From Zasmidium citrigriseum (Eukaryota; Ascomycota; Dothideomycetes; Mycosphaerellales; Mycosphaerellaceae), in the NCBI GenBank assembly GCA_002786025.1, contig NHNW01000038.1:124001-188000 (forward strand): a stretch of 64,000 nt of DNA, written 5' to 3'. This document shows, piece by piece, positions 3,001-39,337 of the stretch. A model generated the notes under the pieces. The model was given only the letters and a program-made list of their open reading frames with translations. It had not been told where the DNA came from and ran no database searches. Every line of letters starts with the position of its first letter. Within the stretch, counting starts at the first letter, position 1. The translations under genes and the position numbers were made by a program.

Positions 3001-5077
3001 ATATTCTCTACCGAGAACAGACATCCTATCCAACATGGATGAGATTCATCAAACACGGGTTCGATAATTCGCTGCATGGCCTGACATCGGTCTTCAAGAT
3101 CACGTCTACTACTGTACGAGAGCTTGCAATTAGGCATCGACGGTACCGGGACAACCATGGAATTGTTCTGCCCGCGCAGGCTTGGCGGCTACAACGATAT
3201 TTTCCATCTAGCTTTTCTGTTCATCATCAGGCGCAGATGAGCCGCCACTTCGCCATGGCCTTTCGTCACACGGTCACAACGCCCGCGCTGTTTCTTGAGT
3301 GGCATGGAGTTTGGCGGTCTCGATCCTGTCTCACTATTCAGTATCTCCTGAATCACCGGGATTCTCCATTTCGATGGCCATGGCGGAGAATTCGTATTCC
3401 CCGGCGAAGCTGATCAACGATGACTGCTGATTTGCTTTCCAGTGGCATCCTTCACCACCATGGAACAAGAGAAGTTGGTCGACCGATCACCGGCTTTTGT
3501 GACTCCTGCATCACACGCAATCGTTGTTAACATCATCAAGCTCGACGACGTGCGAAGTTGCCCGATGGCCCTGCTCGTCTCTCGTCACCATCTCATCAGC
3601 CAACAGATAAACGCTGTTCATGTGCGAACCCTTGTTTCCAAGAACTATTGTCTGCACGCTTCGGAACCGACATGCAGACAAACGTATTCAACATCGTTGC
3701 TAGTCAATGATACCATGCCTTGACTTTGCCACAGACTGGAAGGATGCTGCAAAGTTTCGCCAACTCATTTCCGGTCCGTGTATCTCTAATGCTATTGCAA
3801 CGAGCTCGTGGCAGTTCGAGCGAATCTAGATACATGCAAGTCTCCTTTACCACTTCAGACGAGCAGATGGGTTTGAGAGCGCTGCGCTGCAAGTTCAGCA
3901 TACGCCCCATGTGGTGGTCAGAGGTAGACAAAGGAGAGACCGAATCCACTCCTCTCTTTCTCAGGTGTCTGGTCCCAGACCAGCGCAAGTGCCACCTGAA
4001 GATCTCGCACGTCGCTCGCTGGAATCCTGCTTCTTACAGCCGATGATCGATAACACAAGCAATAAAAGAAGAAAGTTCTTATCCTCTCGAGCCGTGGTCT
4101 CCAGCATCGCAGGCACCATCTTTCGGACGCACCAAGGGGGCAGCGAAGGTGAGTCGCGGCGTGCACAGCAGGCCACAGCAGACTCCATCCTTCCGGACTC
4201 AGCCCTGCACGAAGTGCGTAGGAAAGGGATCCGCCGTGATCAGCGGGTACGAGGCTGCGACAAAAAACCCTTCTGCCAAAAGGGAAAAAGCAAGCCAAGG
4301 ACCTGCCTCTGACCGCACATTCGGTAGGCTGCTCTGAGACGCTCGGTAGGCGTTCTGAGTCCGGCGTACACAACACTTGCAAGTCAGAGGCAGATGAGAA
4401 GAAGAAGAGAAAGGGGGATAGAGGGGAGAGATGGAGAGCTTTTATAGCTTGCTCTTCACCTCCCCCTACCTCACATCTGTGGGCTTGTTGACTTGGCCTA
4501 GACGGTTGCGTGACTGCCTTTGGACCGACCACGAGTACCTCTCCAGGGACATGCGTCGTTGCAAGCCAGCGGCGATGCTGCTATCGTCGTGATCGTTGAT
4601 GCAGAACGTCACGGTGGCGGGTAAGGGCAATCTTCCTCACTCTCATCCTGCATTTCTCTTTTCTCTGGCAGCCTTTCCCTTTTCCTATCTCGCACGTCCA
4701 GTTTTCAATCTGTTGATCCGTGCACTTCTTCTTTGTTCGGGCTAGAGGTCTTGCAATTATCAATCCATGACCGAAGGTAGCAAACGATCAAGAGATACAT
4801 GTCGATGACGGTCTCGCTGGCAACCCATAGGGTGCGACGGTGAGCAGTGAAATTAGTTCAGTCTTGAGCTGGTCGTTTGTAGGCTTTTTTTCATGATAGA
4901 GAGCGATTCAGCCGTGTACATATGAGGAGTGGACATCTTGTGAATGGTAGCATTTGATCTGTTCAGGAAATCAATGCATCTGATAGTGCCAAGCCATCCC
5001 GCGGCTCTTCCCGCGCGTCGCTGCCTCTTCCATCCCGAATCTTGAATCTCAAACATCCGAACATCACATCCATCGCC
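1..5077. other. Gene-poor region, no supportable gene
   Basis: I see no coding region I can support here. Open frames reach 300 codons (1060-1962, plus strand), but they lack recognisable domains, have composition like random translation (rich in Arg, Ser, Pro, Cys, His), and compete with similar frames on both strands. The first 1.2 kb is GC- and CpG-rich. The last 300 bases form the promoter and leader of the ribosomal protein gene that follows. The stretch could hold a long non-coding RNA, remnants of an old element, or the regulatory region of a gene lying left of the window. Confidence 0.6.
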
Positions 5078-6055
5078 ATGCCGCCACGACTCCAGCTGCT
5101 CAGAAGAGCAGCGGTCACGATCCCGACTCAGCAAAGCTATCAGCCTCTCGCACCGTTTCTTTACCCCTTCCTCAGCCAGCAGCAGCGCTCGGCATCTATC
5201 CTTTCCTCCCTATCCGACACCAAAGGCGCGTACAATAAGAGAATCAGGAGAGGACGCGGTCCGGCCAGTGGAAAGGGAAAGACATCGGGACGTGGTCATA
5301 AAGGTCAAAAGCAGCATGGCAAGGTGCCTGCGGGATTCAATGGTGGACAGACGCCGGACTGGGTGGTTTCTGGCAAGAGGGGATTTGATAACCAGTAAGA
5401 AGGATGATATGGTGCAATGCTGTGATATACGTGCTGATGATTTTGAAGCTTCTCCGTGGATATGAGCAAGGTGAACTTGAACCGCATACAACTATGGATC
5501 AATCAGGGACGCCTGGACCCGACCCAGCCTATCACCATGAAGGAATTGAACAAGTCGCGCTGCGTACACGGCGTGAGGGATGGCATCAAGCTACTCGCTC
5601 GCGGAAAAGAGGAATTGACCACACCCATCAACATCGTTGTATCCCGAGCCAGCGCCGAAGCCATCGACACCGTGGAAAAGCTGGGCGGCACAGTCACCAC
5701 CCGCTACTACACCAACTTCGCCATCAAGAAAATCATGAGGGGTGAAATGGACCCAATCCACAGTCTACAATCACGCATCTCCATGTCGCCGGAGTCCCCT
5801 GAAGCTGCCGAGGAAGCCGCAGATGCAATGGCAATGGACAGGAAGAAGTACAGGTTTAGACTACCTGACCCGACCAAGAGAAAGGACTTGGAATACTACC
5901 GCGACTCGGCGCATCGGGGATATTTGAGTCATCTTGTGGAGGAAGGCCATGGCCCGAGTTTGTTCTTCAAGACGCCTGGCGCCGGAAAGAAAGACAGCAA
6001 GAAGGCCACCGGCAAGGCGAAGAAGCAACAGCAGGCGACGAATAGGCTCTGGTAG
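5078..6055 (+). CDS. MRPL10: Mitochondrial large-subunit ribosomal protein uL15m
   Basis: Structural protein of the mitochondrial 54S ribosomal subunit, orthologous to bacterial L15. There are two exons, 5078-5394 and 5449-6055, with a 54-nt intron (GTAAGA donor, GAAG acceptor). Splicing gives 307 residues and restores the conserved stretch [16 protein letters not shown]. The N-terminus is basic, Ser/Gln-rich and lacks acid residues, as expected for a mitochondrial presequence. At about residues 50-90 comes the glycine/arginine-rich L15 signature ([20 protein letters not shown]). The central domain ([15 protein letters not shown], then [22 protein letters not shown]) is the usual L15 fold, and a lysine-rich fungal extension follows. 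The start is the first ATG giving a presequence, in context CGCCATGCC. The family assignment is firm; mitochondrial location is inferred from the presequence and extension. Confidence 0.93.
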
Positions 6056-6539
6056 ATGTATTTGTATATTCATGTGTACAGAAGTATTATCGTCAAGCCC
6101 GCGGTGCACGATTCTCAATGACTATGTTAGCAATCGAAGCATGTCCCTCAGAAACGCCCTTTCATAGCCGCTCAGTCGCTCGATCACGCCATATAACATC
6201 GAATTTGTGCGAGTGAAGAAACAAAAAAACTGTCTGCAGCTTAAAGCCCACGAATGCATTGGGAAAGTGCAACCATCTAAACGACGATAGCGTGGCCTCC
6301 ATAGCCGCATATCGGCCCAGCTATCAAACGGTTGGCCGTAGCCATTCCCCTTACAAACATTCCTTTTTGCTAAACGGTACGGCCAAGACAGAGGTAAAAA
6401 TATAGAGAACAGTGGTCGGAGAATATCTCTCCTACGCGATCCTTTAAAACTCTCTTTTTCTTGACATTCACTCACTCTCCAAGGTTTCAACTTTAATTCC
6501 CATCTCATCCCTGGCGTTGCGACGCGCTGATTGGAAGAG
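6056..6539. other. Intergenic, 3' end of uL15m and promoter of DUF1275 gene
   Basis: Tandem spacing of about 480 bases. It should contain the uL15m 3' UTR and the promoter of the next gene. I see no further coding signal. The minus-strand open frame across 6122-6607 has no family features. Confidence 0.5.
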
Positions 6540-7491
6540 ATGTCCGAGGCGGCTTTCTCACCTTCACCACACCCTGCTGGGGACCGGCAAAAGGAGAGTG
6601 CGACCATTGAAGATGGAATTCAAGATGAGAAAGCGGGAGTGATTGCACGAAAACCGGGACTGTTTTCACGAGCGAGGCTTTTGGGACCGGTGGGAAAAGA
6701 GCATGGCGATTGGGCGCTTTTGGCGTCTTGTCTTGTGACGGGGATGGTTGATGCTGCTGCGTTTACGAATTGGGGTGAGTCGTGCCTTATGTGTGATTGA
6801 ATCCAGGATCGTTGGCTGACGAGATATCGATGGTATAGAGGTCTTCGTAGCGATGCAGACAGGCAACACCGTAATCCTCGGCCTCTCAACAGCAGGCAAT
6901 CCCTCCAACCCCTACGGCTGGCTAACAACAATGGTCTCCCTGGCCTCCTTCCTAATCGGAGCCTTCCTCCTCTTCCGCATCTCAAACTACCTCTGTCCCA
7001 AAGGCCCTTCATCGAACCGTCTCTGGGCCGGAGCGATATTCTTCATCCAGGGCATCCTCATCCTCATCGCAGCAGCGCTCGCGACTCCGGCAGGTCTGAT
7101 CCCACAAGACCCTGCGCCGATCGGACGATATCAAGAGAAACCCGAAGGCGTGGTGCACAACGTTTTGATCGTGGCTCTGCTTCCGCCTCTCGCCTTTCAG
7201 AGCGGGATGCAGATTGCGAGTTCGAGGTTGATGGGGTTTAATGAGTTGCCGGTAAATGTTTTGACGTCGACGTACTGCGATCTGATGGGGGATTTCAAGC
7301 TCTTTGCCCTGAACAACGTCAAGCGGAATCGGAGATTGGCAGCTGTCATCCTCCTGCTGATAGGAGCCATCTCCAGCGGGTGGTTGATGAGGAGTTCGGG
7401 AGGTCTGGAGAGTGTCCTTTGGATAGCGGCGGGGATCAAGATCCTAGTGGGAATATCGATGTGGTGCTTTTTGCCGACGGCTGAAGAGTGA
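6540..7491 (+). CDS. DUF1275 (YoaK-like) membrane protein
   Basis: Integral membrane protein of the DUF1275 family; its substrate is unknown. There are two exons, 6540-6774 and 6839-7491, with a 64-nt intron (GTGAGT donor, TATAG acceptor). Splicing gives 295 residues and forms the family hallmark NWEVFVAMQTGNTVI. Hydrophobic segments can be followed from about residue 60 (LLASCLVTGMVDAAAF), then TMVSLASFLIGAFLLF, AIFFIQGILILIAAAL, LIVALLPPLAFQSGMQI, LAAVILLLIGAISSGW and a last one before the short polar tail, so six membrane spans are plausible. The first 50 residues are polar and presumably cytosolic. An in-frame TTG lies three codons upstream, but the ATG at 6540 is the natural start. It is convergent with the P450 gene, whose stop lies only 82 bases away. 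Confidence 0.88.
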
Positions 7492-7572
7492 TTCGAACGA
7501 CAGATACCCATTAACAGTATAGAAAGATAGATATAGAACGAGCGGGTGCGCGAAACGAAAGACTTTTGTGAT

Positions 7573-9130
7573 TCAGGCCTCTACCGGTTTACAGAACGCC
7601 CGCATGTGATTCGAATTGAAGTGTGGCGAGAAGCATTCCGTCCAAGTGACATCCTCTGGCTTGGTCCCGTCTAATCTGAGCTCGAACCGGCGAAAGAGGG
7701 CAGCAAAGGCCATGTATAGTTCACACATCGCTAGATTCTGACCGATGCATCCACGTGGGCCTTTCGAGAAGGAGACCAGCCACTTGTCGAGCGCGGCAGA
7801 GTCTGGGCTCAACCATCTCTCTGGCTCGAACTTCTGTGGGTCGGGAAAGATTTCTTCAGACTCGTGAACGAAGCGGATGCTCTGGCCAACGACAACACCG
7901 CCCGGAATATGCTTCCCACTGATAATCGCTCCTGTGGGCGGCACTACGCGAGGTAGGGGATAGGGAACGCTGGGAGCCATGCGAAGACTCTCCTTGATGA
8001 CGGCAGTCAAGAATGGCAACTTCTCGAGTTCTTCCACTTTAGGCATGTTTTTGAGATCTGGCCATGCTTCACGGACCTCAGTCCTCAACCTCGCTTCAAT
8101 CTCTGGACTCTGGAGGATGTGGTAGGCTCCCAGCATGACGGTGTTCCCAGCAGCCTCAGCACCACCGAAGAACAAAGCCATGCCTTCCTCATAGAGACTC
8201 TGCGGCGAAGGAACTCCGGCTGCCTTGTTGAGCTCCGGGTCGAGTAGGCGATGGTAGATGGTCGGGGTGCCCGTCTCCTCCAATAACTGTGGATTCTTGA
8301 CATAATCATTTACCTGCTTGCTCACCAGATCCTGCAGAATCACCCGCCCCGAGAAGTTGGGATCCGTGTGCTTGGCCAGCCAGGCAGGCATCCCGAACAC
8401 CACCTTCCTCAGCAGCTGAAAGTGAAGGAACGCAGGAAAAGCAGGCAGACTGGCATTCATCGCCACCAGGACGGGATAACGAAAACCAGGAGCTTTGGTC
8501 GCCTCAACGTCTTTGGCGAAGCAGTATGTCGTGATGCAGTCAAGACTGAAGGACTTCAACCCGAACAACATGTCAGAGCTCTCTCCGTGAGCGTCATTGG
8601 CGGCCAGAGCATCACAAAGGCGGTCAATGTGTTTGCTCACAATGCCCTGCATTTCGAAAGTCGCACGTCTGGAAAACATGGGGGCGAGGACGTCTTTCCG
8701 TTGTTTGGCTTCGCGGTACGTGAGGAAGCCGAAAGAGCTGGCATCTTGACCGAAGGAATGATAGAGTTTTTCTTCTTTGTCCCAGCGGTTGGTGTTGGAG
8801 TAGATCTCGTGGTAGACTTCTGGGCGGGAGAAGTGGAGCTAGCAGGGCGTTAGCCAGAAGTCTATCTGTGCTGAAGTGAATGCAACGTACCTCATTGACC
8901 CCGACGCGGACGACTTCTCCATACTGGTCGTGCAGCTCTCGAAGGACGTCGGTCCATTTTCTGTGCAGGAAGACGTCGTTCCAGCATTTAAACCATCCCG
9001 TGCACGCCGCCGGTGGACCGGGGAATTTGGCCAAGGGATGGAGTGCGTAGTTGTAGAATAGTGTCCAGAGGCGATGGACTATCCAGGCAAGCAAGAGGCC
9101 TGAGATGATTGTGGTGATGTTGAGGGCCAT
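7573..9130 (-). CDS. Cytochrome P450 monooxygenase
   Basis: Haem-thiolate monooxygenase, 501 residues, probably anchored in the ER by its N-terminal helix (TTIISGLLLAWIVHRLW), which is followed by the hinge HPLAKFPGPP. Exons are 9130-8891 and 8838-7573; the 52-nt intron has a GTACGT donor and TAG acceptor in phase 0, joining GVNE to LHFSRPEVYHEIY. Visible P450 motifs are the I-helix region FFGGAEAAGNT, the ExxR motif in KESLRMAP near residue 360, FEPERW, and the haem loop FSKGPRGCIGQ near residue 440 with the axial cysteine. The sequence style resembles fungal P450s related to trichothecene-pathway hydroxylases, but the substrate cannot be inferred. No synthase backbone gene lies nearby, so this looks like an orphan P450. 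Confidence 0.93.
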
Positions 9131-10030
9131 CGTGTGACTTTAGCGGGTCGTGTTGAGGCAGCGAAAGATGTTTGTGGCGGTATCTTCTTGATTCCTCCCG
9201 GATTTGCTTGACTTGATGGCTCGCAGTCGTGCACCTCATTCAGTATCGAGACTTCTCGAGATATGATGCCACGAGGGGCAAAGACGCAGTAGCGTGGTCC
9301 GACTGCAGTAGTGGTAGTCAAGCAATATGTCGTGCAGCGAACTCCTTAAAGGCCATTCATCGCACGCTCGAGACTTCGGCCGTACATCCAGATGTCTTCA
9401 TCACTCCGACAAGGCTCTCTCGTTCTTGCACCACTCCCGTCGGAGAGGCCGTGAGCTTCGAAGGTGGCATGAGGATGATCCCGGAGAGAGCAACATCCCT
9501 GACCAACAGGCCAGCTCCGAGTGCATGGCCACAGTCATCGACCCTCTGCTGAGATAATGAGCAAAGCCGTCGACAAGTGATCGAGGATACGAAGCGTGAC
9601 GAGGAAAGAGGAAGCCACGAAGCGTAAGGAAGCAACAAGGAAAGAAGTACTTACCCTCTGTTTCCGTGCAAAGGCGACTGGCTGCATCGCGAGTCATCAA
9701 CGCATGACACCAATCTATCCTCAGCATGTTCCAAGCCAACGAGGAAGACTAAAAAGTCAGTACGATTGAGATCATGACCACTTTGATCGTGATAGAAATG
9801 CATGCATTCTTCCCTCGTAAGCGGGCGGGTATCCGTTGATTCATTAGTAGCAACATCCATCTGAAACCCCTTTCCTCAATGCAATCTTTTCCCACAATGC
9901 CGTGCAATCATACATCCCGTTCGCCTCGCTAAAAGTCAACAAAAAGCAGAGCCTCCCCGATCCAGGTAAAGTCCATGTAGTCCCGCATGCAGTCATCTCG
10001 AGGATATCTCATGAAAGTTTGTTCCGGCAT
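9131..10030. other. Intergenic, P450 upstream region
   Basis: Nine hundred bases holding the P450 promoter and the 3' flank of the rhomboid gene, both on the minus strand. I see no gene, repeat or RNA signature. Short open frames on both strands have no family features. Confidence 0.5.
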
Positions 10031-39170: not shown

Positions 39171-39175
39171 AAAAA
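39171..39175 (-). terminator. RNA polymerase III terminator
   Basis: A run of five T residues on the minus strand, beginning five bases after the tRNA discriminator base. This is the normal distance for Pol III termination. Confidence 0.7.
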
Positions 39176-39216
39176 GTATGAGGTCGTACCCGGAATCGAA
39201 CCGGGGTTACCGGAAA

Positions 39217-39230
39217 GCGAATTGAGAATT
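39217..39230 (-). other. Canonical tRNA intron (about 14 nt)
   Basis: After the anticodon CTG and A37 there are 15 nt before the 3' anticodon stem TCCGG. That equals a 14-nt intron plus nucleotide 38. Position and size are normal for a eukaryotic nuclear tRNA intron. Exact ends are uncertain by one base. Confidence 0.65.
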
Positions 39231-39238
39231 CAGAATCC

Positions 39239-39309
39239 CTGATACCGATGTTAGAATTTTTGTTCTTGTGATACCAGCTCATATGGCTGTGAAAGGCTGC
39301 GGGACTCAC
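39239..39309 (-). other. Spliceosomal-type intron inside the tRNA anticodon stem
   Basis: This 71-nt insert separates tRNA nucleotides 28 and 29. It begins GTGAGT, has TTCTAAC as a branch-site match with the branch A 12 nt before the end, and ends TATCAG. These are the same signals used by the protein-coding introns of this window. Precise removal restores the anticodon stem. The boundary could shift by one base because G is present at both ends, but only this placement gives GT-AG. The eukaryotic tRNA endonuclease normally cuts next to position 37, so it should not remove this insert. Confidence 0.8.
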
Positions 39310-39337
39310 GATGTGCTGACCGCTACACTATACAACC

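Follow-up and report, generated by a model that had tools for sequence, protein, structure and literature searches.

Spliceosomal-type introns in the nuclear tRNA genes of this fungus are real, old and genome-wide, as is directly supported by the anatomy of the genes, the intron boundaries, the conservation between paralogs and the lack of uninterrupted copies in the searches made. Specifically, 28 of the 46 resolved nuclear tRNA genes are interrupted, by 42 such introns and up to three per gene. The tRNA-Gln(CUG) gene in the window (the whole 64-kb stretch of DNA that was analysed) has a 71-nt insert which, with a probability of about 0.93, would be one of these at least 42 introns, a spliceosomal intron of the U2 type within a functional tRNA gene, with the major spliceosome acting on Pol III pre-tRNAs. 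The first-pass annotation of this DNA had treated the matter as that of a single gene; the insert it pointed to is real, but the scope was too small.

The gene lies on the minus strand at 39181-39337 (157 nt). Exon 1 (39310-39337, tRNA positions 1-28) contains the A box (about 39320-39330) and is followed by the insert between tRNA positions 28 and 29 (39239-39309; GTGAGT...TTCTAACATCGGTATCAG), with its 5′ splice site GTGAGT at 39304-39309, its branch motif CTAAC at 39250-39254 (the A, at 39251, being 12 nt before the 3′ end) and its 3′ splice site CAG at 39239-39241. Exon 2 (39181-39238, positions 29-73) includes an ordinary tRNA intron of the endonuclease type, 14 nt long, after position 37 (39216-39229), as well as the B box GGTTCGATTCC (39192-39202), and the putative Pol III terminator, a T5 run, lies at 39171-39175. 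All of this agrees base for base with the insert, splice sites, branch A, 14-nt intron and T5 that had been described at first pass, and exactly as claimed there, 72 nt remain once the 71-nt and 14-nt introns are out. Neither ARAGORN in a standard run nor Rfam at gathering scores finds any tRNA in the 64-kb window. With introns allowed, ARAGORN makes a false tRNA-Gly(ccc) call on the unspliced gene; after removal of the 71 nt it reports tRNA-Gln(ctg), with the start as expected and the end within one base.

Interrupted tRNA genes and their introns

The genome searched comprises 44.4 Mb in 148 contigs. Interrupted loci were drawn from the Rfam tRNA model, places with a B box or a B box plus T-run, similarity of genomic DNA to spliced tRNAs, and two patterns built on the branch motif, Leu-UAG and Asp-2 being the sole genes that came from a branch-motif pattern and by no other route. 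The Rfam tRNA model gave 43 matches among the best 63 of 1309 candidates; 17 of these, on contigs C41 and C51, were taken for mitochondrial by composition and clustering, and several of the matches outside these two contigs have cloverleaves that are long or broken. Three introns are present in the single genes for Gln-UUG and Arg-CCU, and two in the single genes for Thr-CGU, Arg-UCU and Pro-CGG, in each of two Asp-GUC genes and in each of two initiator Met (iMet) genes, both iMet genes found thus being interrupted. The two Ala-UGC genes have two introns and one, the three Lys-CUU genes one, two and two, and the two Gln-CUG genes one each. Interrupted genes were also found for Val-CAC, Leu-CAG, Leu-UAG, Ser-CGA, Ser-UGA, elongator Met and Gly-CCC (one each), Val-AAC (two) and Ile-AAU (three). 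The 18 uninterrupted nuclear genes are those for Thr-AGU (two), Thr-UGU, Ala-AGC (three), Ser-AGA (two), Ser-GCU, Tyr (two), Ile-UAU, Glu-UUC, Glu-CUC, Arg-ACG, Gly-UCC and Pro-AGG, together with L154, which is Gly-CCC according to ARAGORN. The Glu-UUC gene has a low cloverleaf template score (12.1), yet is called by both ARAGORN and Rfam. Outside both counts are L110 (called Val-CAC, with an odd anticodon loop), L095, L043/L145, L044/L104 and L029.

No uninterrupted gene for Gln, Asp, initiator or elongator Met, Lys, Val or Leu was found in own-genome DNA and Rfam searches, and a 1540-nt query that combined spliced tRNAs with other fungal tRNA sequences returned just fragments, interrupted paralogs or known genes. 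Genes for Trp, Phe, Cys, His and Asn were not found either, with fungal sequences in the query for all of these except Trp, nor were isoacceptors such as Leu-AAG and Lys-UUU in these searches. Therefore, since only the best candidates were scored and several isoacceptors were not found, the absence of uninterrupted copies is strong but not absolute. Among eleven further T-loop/B-box candidates (L147-L157) there were zero interrupted tRNAs and one uninterrupted (L154), and the first 30 listed B-box places (L052-L081) gave one interrupted tRNA, L056. A pattern with an A box behind a branch site matches 13 places, against 23 in the reversed control, and three of the 13 are interrupted tRNA genes that were already known; a T-loop pattern matches 53 places, two of them new genes, against 82 in its reversed control.

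The ends of the introns are GT-AG in 41/42 and GC-AG in 1/42 (GCGAGT); the latter, CAG|GCGAGT, sits in the initiator tRNA gene Met-i-2 (L135). The 5′ splice sites are GTAAGT (14), GTTAGT (5), GTAAGC (4), GTATGT (3) and others, including the one GCGAGT, with G at +5 in 40/42, and the 3′ splice sites are CAG (29), TAG (10) and AAG (3). In 41/42 there is a branch motif CTRAY, its A standing 9-15 nt before the 3′ end, and lengths range from 48 to 78 nt (50-61 nt in 38/42). Two mRNA introns mapped by eye in the window provide the comparison: that of the P450 gene (52 nt, GTACGT...GGCTAACGCCCTGCTAG) agrees fully with the tRNA introns, and that of the Pol delta gene (66 nt, GTAAGT...TAG) carries CTAAA close to its end, with CTAAC lying only about 30 nt from that end, so that a CTRAY at the usual distance is found in one of the two. 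The Pol delta ORF is 95% identical to Zasmidium cellare over 861 residues, and the P450 ORF 67%. Protein similarity places the fungus in the Mycosphaerellaceae, with Z. cellare the nearest relative that has a name, and speaks against a lichen-forming host; going by the P450, it is a species other than Z. cellare. The intron sites are distributed over the D-loop (7, plus 1 at its end), the T-loop (7), the T-stem or its loop-side end (7), the variable region (5), the 5′ (5) and 3′ (4) acceptor strands and the 5′ anticodon stem (3), with two after position 9 and one after position 26, in a tally that took Asp-1 in a frame one base off. The last intron of all three Lys-CUU genes (L133, L134/L146 and L144) is in the 3′ acceptor strand, and a long trailer, conserved among these genes and containing two small hairpins (CTTTCCTATGAAAGG and TCTGTCAAAGACAGA-like), precedes the T-run.

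The catalytic core of a group I or group II intron takes up a few hundred nucleotides, and the inserts have just 48-78 nt; self-splicing is ruled out by their size. It is very improbable that they are ectopic tRNA introns that the tRNA splicing endonuclease cuts by way of a bulge-helix-bulge (BHB), as in archaea and some red algae. Although tRNA introns away from position 37 do exist elsewhere, the central 4-bp helix, the one element of the BHB that was scored, can form at only 4/45 inserts, and GT-AG ends with a branch motif at a fixed distance are near invariant, though the endonuclease has no need of them. Moreover, the same type of intron occurs in U6, a non-tRNA, and 0/42 junctions are at 37/38. 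The extra bases (2-45 nt) at 37/38 in 23/28 interrupted genes are the ordinary tRNA intron, its placement by the template being approximate. Searches for BHB motifs have uncovered many disrupted tRNA genes, as described in excerpts of PMC3978253.

Paralogs, empty sites and excision controls

When the 157-nt window gene was used as a DNA query against its own genome, in a search that passes over very common words, it matched two places only, itself and L002. The latter is also a tRNA-Gln(CUG) gene, and its 78-nt insert (GTTAGT...TACTAACATCGATACCAG) is likewise between positions 28 and 29; the tRNA-Gln(CUG) genes found thus number two, both interrupted at the same site. Between the two genes, 76 of 87 aligned positions are identical after splicing, and the T-stem has a compensated change (CCCGG/CCGGG vs CGCGG/CCGCG), while the intron cores (introns without their first 6 and last 20 nt) are 29/54 = 0.54 identical, against 0.48 when shuffled. 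The same holds more widely: in 13 paralog intron comparisons, 3 of them between U6 genes, exons are 78-99% identical and cores 0.41-0.68, with 0.44-0.50 in shuffled sequence; the cores above background are those of Lys-2/3 (0.68 and 0.59), U6-2/3 (0.59), Ile-1/2 (0.58) and Val (0.56). Between the iMet paralogs, two base pairs of the acceptor stem have changed, each with compensation (AGCTGAG/CTCAGCT to AGCTTTG/CAAAGCT). Conserved exons and compensated stems, with intron cores diverged, point to old introns in genes that have stayed under selection.

Paralogs also provide natural empty sites. At the point where Ala-UGC-1 is interrupted after GGGC, Ala-UGC-2 is continuous (GGGCGTGTAGCTC), and Lys-CUU-1 is continuous (GGGTTCGAG) where Lys-2 and Lys-3 are split after GGGT; each of the two iMet genes is without an intron that is present in the other, and likewise the two Asp genes. 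These sites fix the boundaries to the base, and they show that introns were gained or lost within one genome.

Introner-like elements are multi-copy families, with many near-identical copies per genome. The window gene matches only its diverged paralog; a recent introner present in many copies is thereby rejected as the identity of its insert. Even more doubtful than endonuclease cutting is the reading that these genes were recently struck by an intron-generating element and are now dead, with working tRNAs made from genes that were not seen. It can draw on the fact that only the best candidates were scored in the tRNA searches (63 of 1309 with the Rfam model) and on the introner-like elements of Dothideomycetes of the same family, a source of new spliceosomal introns in related fungi according to portions of PMC4457414 and PMC3510045, in whose main texts the word tRNA is absent. 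However, introns at the same site have cores at or near background with exons conserved and stems compensated, nothing in the genome but the paralog matches the window gene, and uninterrupted iMet, Gln, Asp, Lys, Val and Leu genes were not found in the searches made. The first-pass annotation had left two options, a fresh insertion that killed the gene or processing of the pre-tRNA by the spliceosome. The former is rejected, given the near-background core of the paralog's intron and the conservation of the spliced genes; the diverged intron at the same site in the paralog and the 28 interrupted tRNA genes strongly favour the latter.

The boundaries were also assessed by a scan that makes no use of motifs, in which the curated start and end were kept constant and a cloverleaf template gave a score to every possible cut of 30-130 nt. 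The real cut is unbeaten at 29/42 sites, and 24/42 are pinned by structure, having no better excision and at most 4 tied among 4185-9392. A GT...AG cut is present in the tied sets of all 24, with a background of 0.006 per excision, and CTRAY is in place at 24/24, against a shuffled mean of 1.0. The other 18/42 sites, mostly in the D-loop, the variable region or the anticodon stem, include 5 without a better cut but with more than 4 ties and 13 with better cuts, the Gln-CUG-2 insert having 337 that score better. The window's own site is among these unpinned ones: of 7473 excisions, 12 tie at 25.8, the real one included, and one scores higher (26.2). Structure alone is insufficient for the exact boundary of this insert, and its cut can be written in two ways, with a G at both flanks; one of the two gives GT...AG.

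Excision by GTNNG...CTRAY...AG at 157 loci on both strands (419 constructs) produced end-to-end tRNAs at 34 loci, corresponding to 24 distinct genes. Four scrambled motif sets gave tRNA loci per constructs of 0/237, 0/284, 1/221 and 2/406 (3 loci from 1148 constructs). There is some circularity in the curated starts and ends and in the two genes found by branch motif alone. ARAGORN finds a tRNA in 28/28 spliced products, with the expected ends in 26/28; spliced Asp-1 is called Asp(GTC) with an end 3 nt too far, and its frame was shifted by one base after that call, its cloverleaf then scoring 23.8. For Arg-CCT, the call appears only once the third intron is excised. A standard tRNA finder misses or misnames the interrupted genes: on the 28 unspliced sequences ARAGORN makes no call in 20, a wrong call in 5 and a call with the right anticodon in 3. 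The least probable reading of all is that enough GT...AG choices would complete any tRNA-like sequence: Leu-TAG and Asp-2 do depend on the branch-motif pattern, starts and ends were picked with introns in mind and scrambled motifs yielded a few calls, but splice motifs played no part in detecting the other loci (by the Rfam tRNA model, DNA similarity, or a B box with or without a T-run), the yields of scrambled and real motifs are not equal, and GT...AG is among the at most four best cuts at every pinned site in the motif-free scan.

Pol III features and a proposed maturation path

A run of T5 or longer follows 27/28 interrupted genes, and Ser-TGA has a T4 within the 28 nt taken. No T5 occurs inside 31 unspliced genes. 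Within the introns, T4 is present in 2/45, against 5.9 in shuffles (8/200 shuffles are as low), and T5 in 0/45, against 1.4 expected, a value equalled by 37/200 shuffles and weak on its own. In flanks that are sometimes shorter than the distance given, CAATCA occurs within 60 nt upstream of 13/28 interrupted genes (1/28 downstream). A motif resembling CTCGAGT follows 9/28 of them at a distance of up to 200 nt (2/28 upstream).

Other genes of the Pol III type were also inspected. The first-pass annotation had cited U6 as a precedent for mRNA-type introns in Pol III genes, and this is borne out in the same genome: the three U6 snRNA genes found (L141, L142 and L143, at G000:C117, C72 and C59) are each interrupted at one common site (...GGCC|CCTGC...) by a GTAAGT...AG intron 56-58 nt long. 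They come from the best 47 of 2195 candidates, none of which scored above the Rfam cut-off, because of the insert or otherwise. The introns of L141 and L143 contain a B-box-like GTTCGAATCC, and the U6 intron of S. pombe likewise holds a B-box-like element. For 5S, 25/28 matches are full length and uninterrupted; therefore, not every Pol III gene is affected. Some further places lie near B boxes. By eye, L096, L097, L106, L118 and L119 are C/D-snoRNA-like units with a B box and a T-run downstream, and are possibly Pol III snoRNA genes. L105, L115, L116 and L117 form a repeated Pol III-like family with no recognisable tRNA, laid out as an A-box-like start, a GGTRACTATYAAA-like stretch, a B box and a T-run. 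A tRNA-like family comprises L110 (G000:C78:194335-195748) and places on C24, C70, C92 and C94; its members end in GGTTCGACTCCGG(T/C)GGT(C/T)AGCA or similar, five B-box matches are found in 1.4 kb of C78, and one member is Val(CAC) for ARAGORN, with an anticodon loop that looks wrong.

From these features we infer the following path. Pol III would transcribe the entire gene as far as the T-run, and the major spliceosome would recognise a 5′ splice site resembling GTRNGT, a CTRAY branch site and the terminal AG, so that the introns of 48-78 nt would leave as lariats and internal exons down to 10 nt, as well as tRNA end pieces down to 3-4 nt, would be joined. Only after this removal would the acceptor stem and the tRNA body fold, whereupon RNase P and RNase Z, and the tRNA endonuclease and ligase where a position-37 intron exists, would finish the molecule. 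The spliceosome probably acts before both end trimming and the tRNA endonuclease. Specifically, an intron splits the acceptor stem in eight genes (iMet-1, Ala-1, Thr, both Arg and the three Lys), in which RNase P and RNase Z would be without a proper substrate before splicing; the tRNA endonuclease measures from the folded tRNA body, and together with the split acceptor stems this makes it likely that the spliceosome comes first. Counting against the proposal, an intron splits the B-box sequence in 10 genes, and TFIIIC binding should be weakened there.

Known intron systems and implications

In the textbook view, tRNA introns are the enzyme-only counterpart of mRNA introns, and the mRNA-splicing machine is not used for tRNAs. 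The ordinary introns at position 37/38, cut by the tRNA endonuclease (TSEN), are in nuclear tRNA genes as are the inserts described here, and many genes have both; unlike the inserts, however, they have a fixed site and no splice-site consensus, and are removed by enzyme alone. Spliceosomal introns in ascomycete rDNA were reportedly described by Bhattacharya in 2000. They are also attributed to Rogers (1993) in a passage of PMC11782384, and like the present introns they are of the mRNA type in fungal non-mRNA genes, although rDNA gives Pol I transcripts. A close system is the U6 snRNA gene of S. pombe, whose mRNA-type intron (Tani and Ohshima 1989, 1991, as cited in PMC10484740) is spliced in fission yeast according to the same paper; U6 introns are a known fungal trait. 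Both are cases of a Pol III gene for a small structured RNA with a normal spliceosomal intron, but here the hosts are a large number of tRNA genes, in which the exons are very short and a single gene can hold as many as three introns, and most also carry an endonuclease-type intron. In 2017, sections of PMC5832005 named U3 and U6 as the only small structured RNAs known so far to be often interrupted by introns, a list that does not include tRNA genes; fungal U3 snoRNA genes resemble the tRNA genes in that both encode structured non-coding RNAs and have canonical splice sites, but their introns, by the same sections, are almost only in one stem-loop, whereas those of the tRNA genes are spread over the molecule.

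The class of intron is known, and the novelty lies in its being used in tRNA genes and in a requirement for it across the genome; no report of spliceosomal introns in tRNA genes was found in the literature searched, a search whose scope took in few subscription papers. One transcript class appears to use both splicing machineries, sometimes in one molecule. If confirmed, the finding would mean that splicing can be accurate even in short Pol III transcripts whose internal exons measure 10-15 nt, and it would offer a natural way to test if a cap or Pol II is required for splicing. It would also raise the question of how introns colonise structured RNA genes, by reverse splicing or by introners. 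Judging from the sequence evidence, it is quite likely that the spliceosome would be an obligatory tRNA-maturation enzyme in this fungal lineage, with iMet, elongator Met and all Gln, Asp, Lys, Val and Leu tRNAs made only when it has taken one to three introns out of their Pol III precursors, ahead of RNase P and RNase Z and alongside the tRNA endonuclease. Translation would then depend on splicing, and translation capacity would, if this is confirmed, be tied to the spliceosome.
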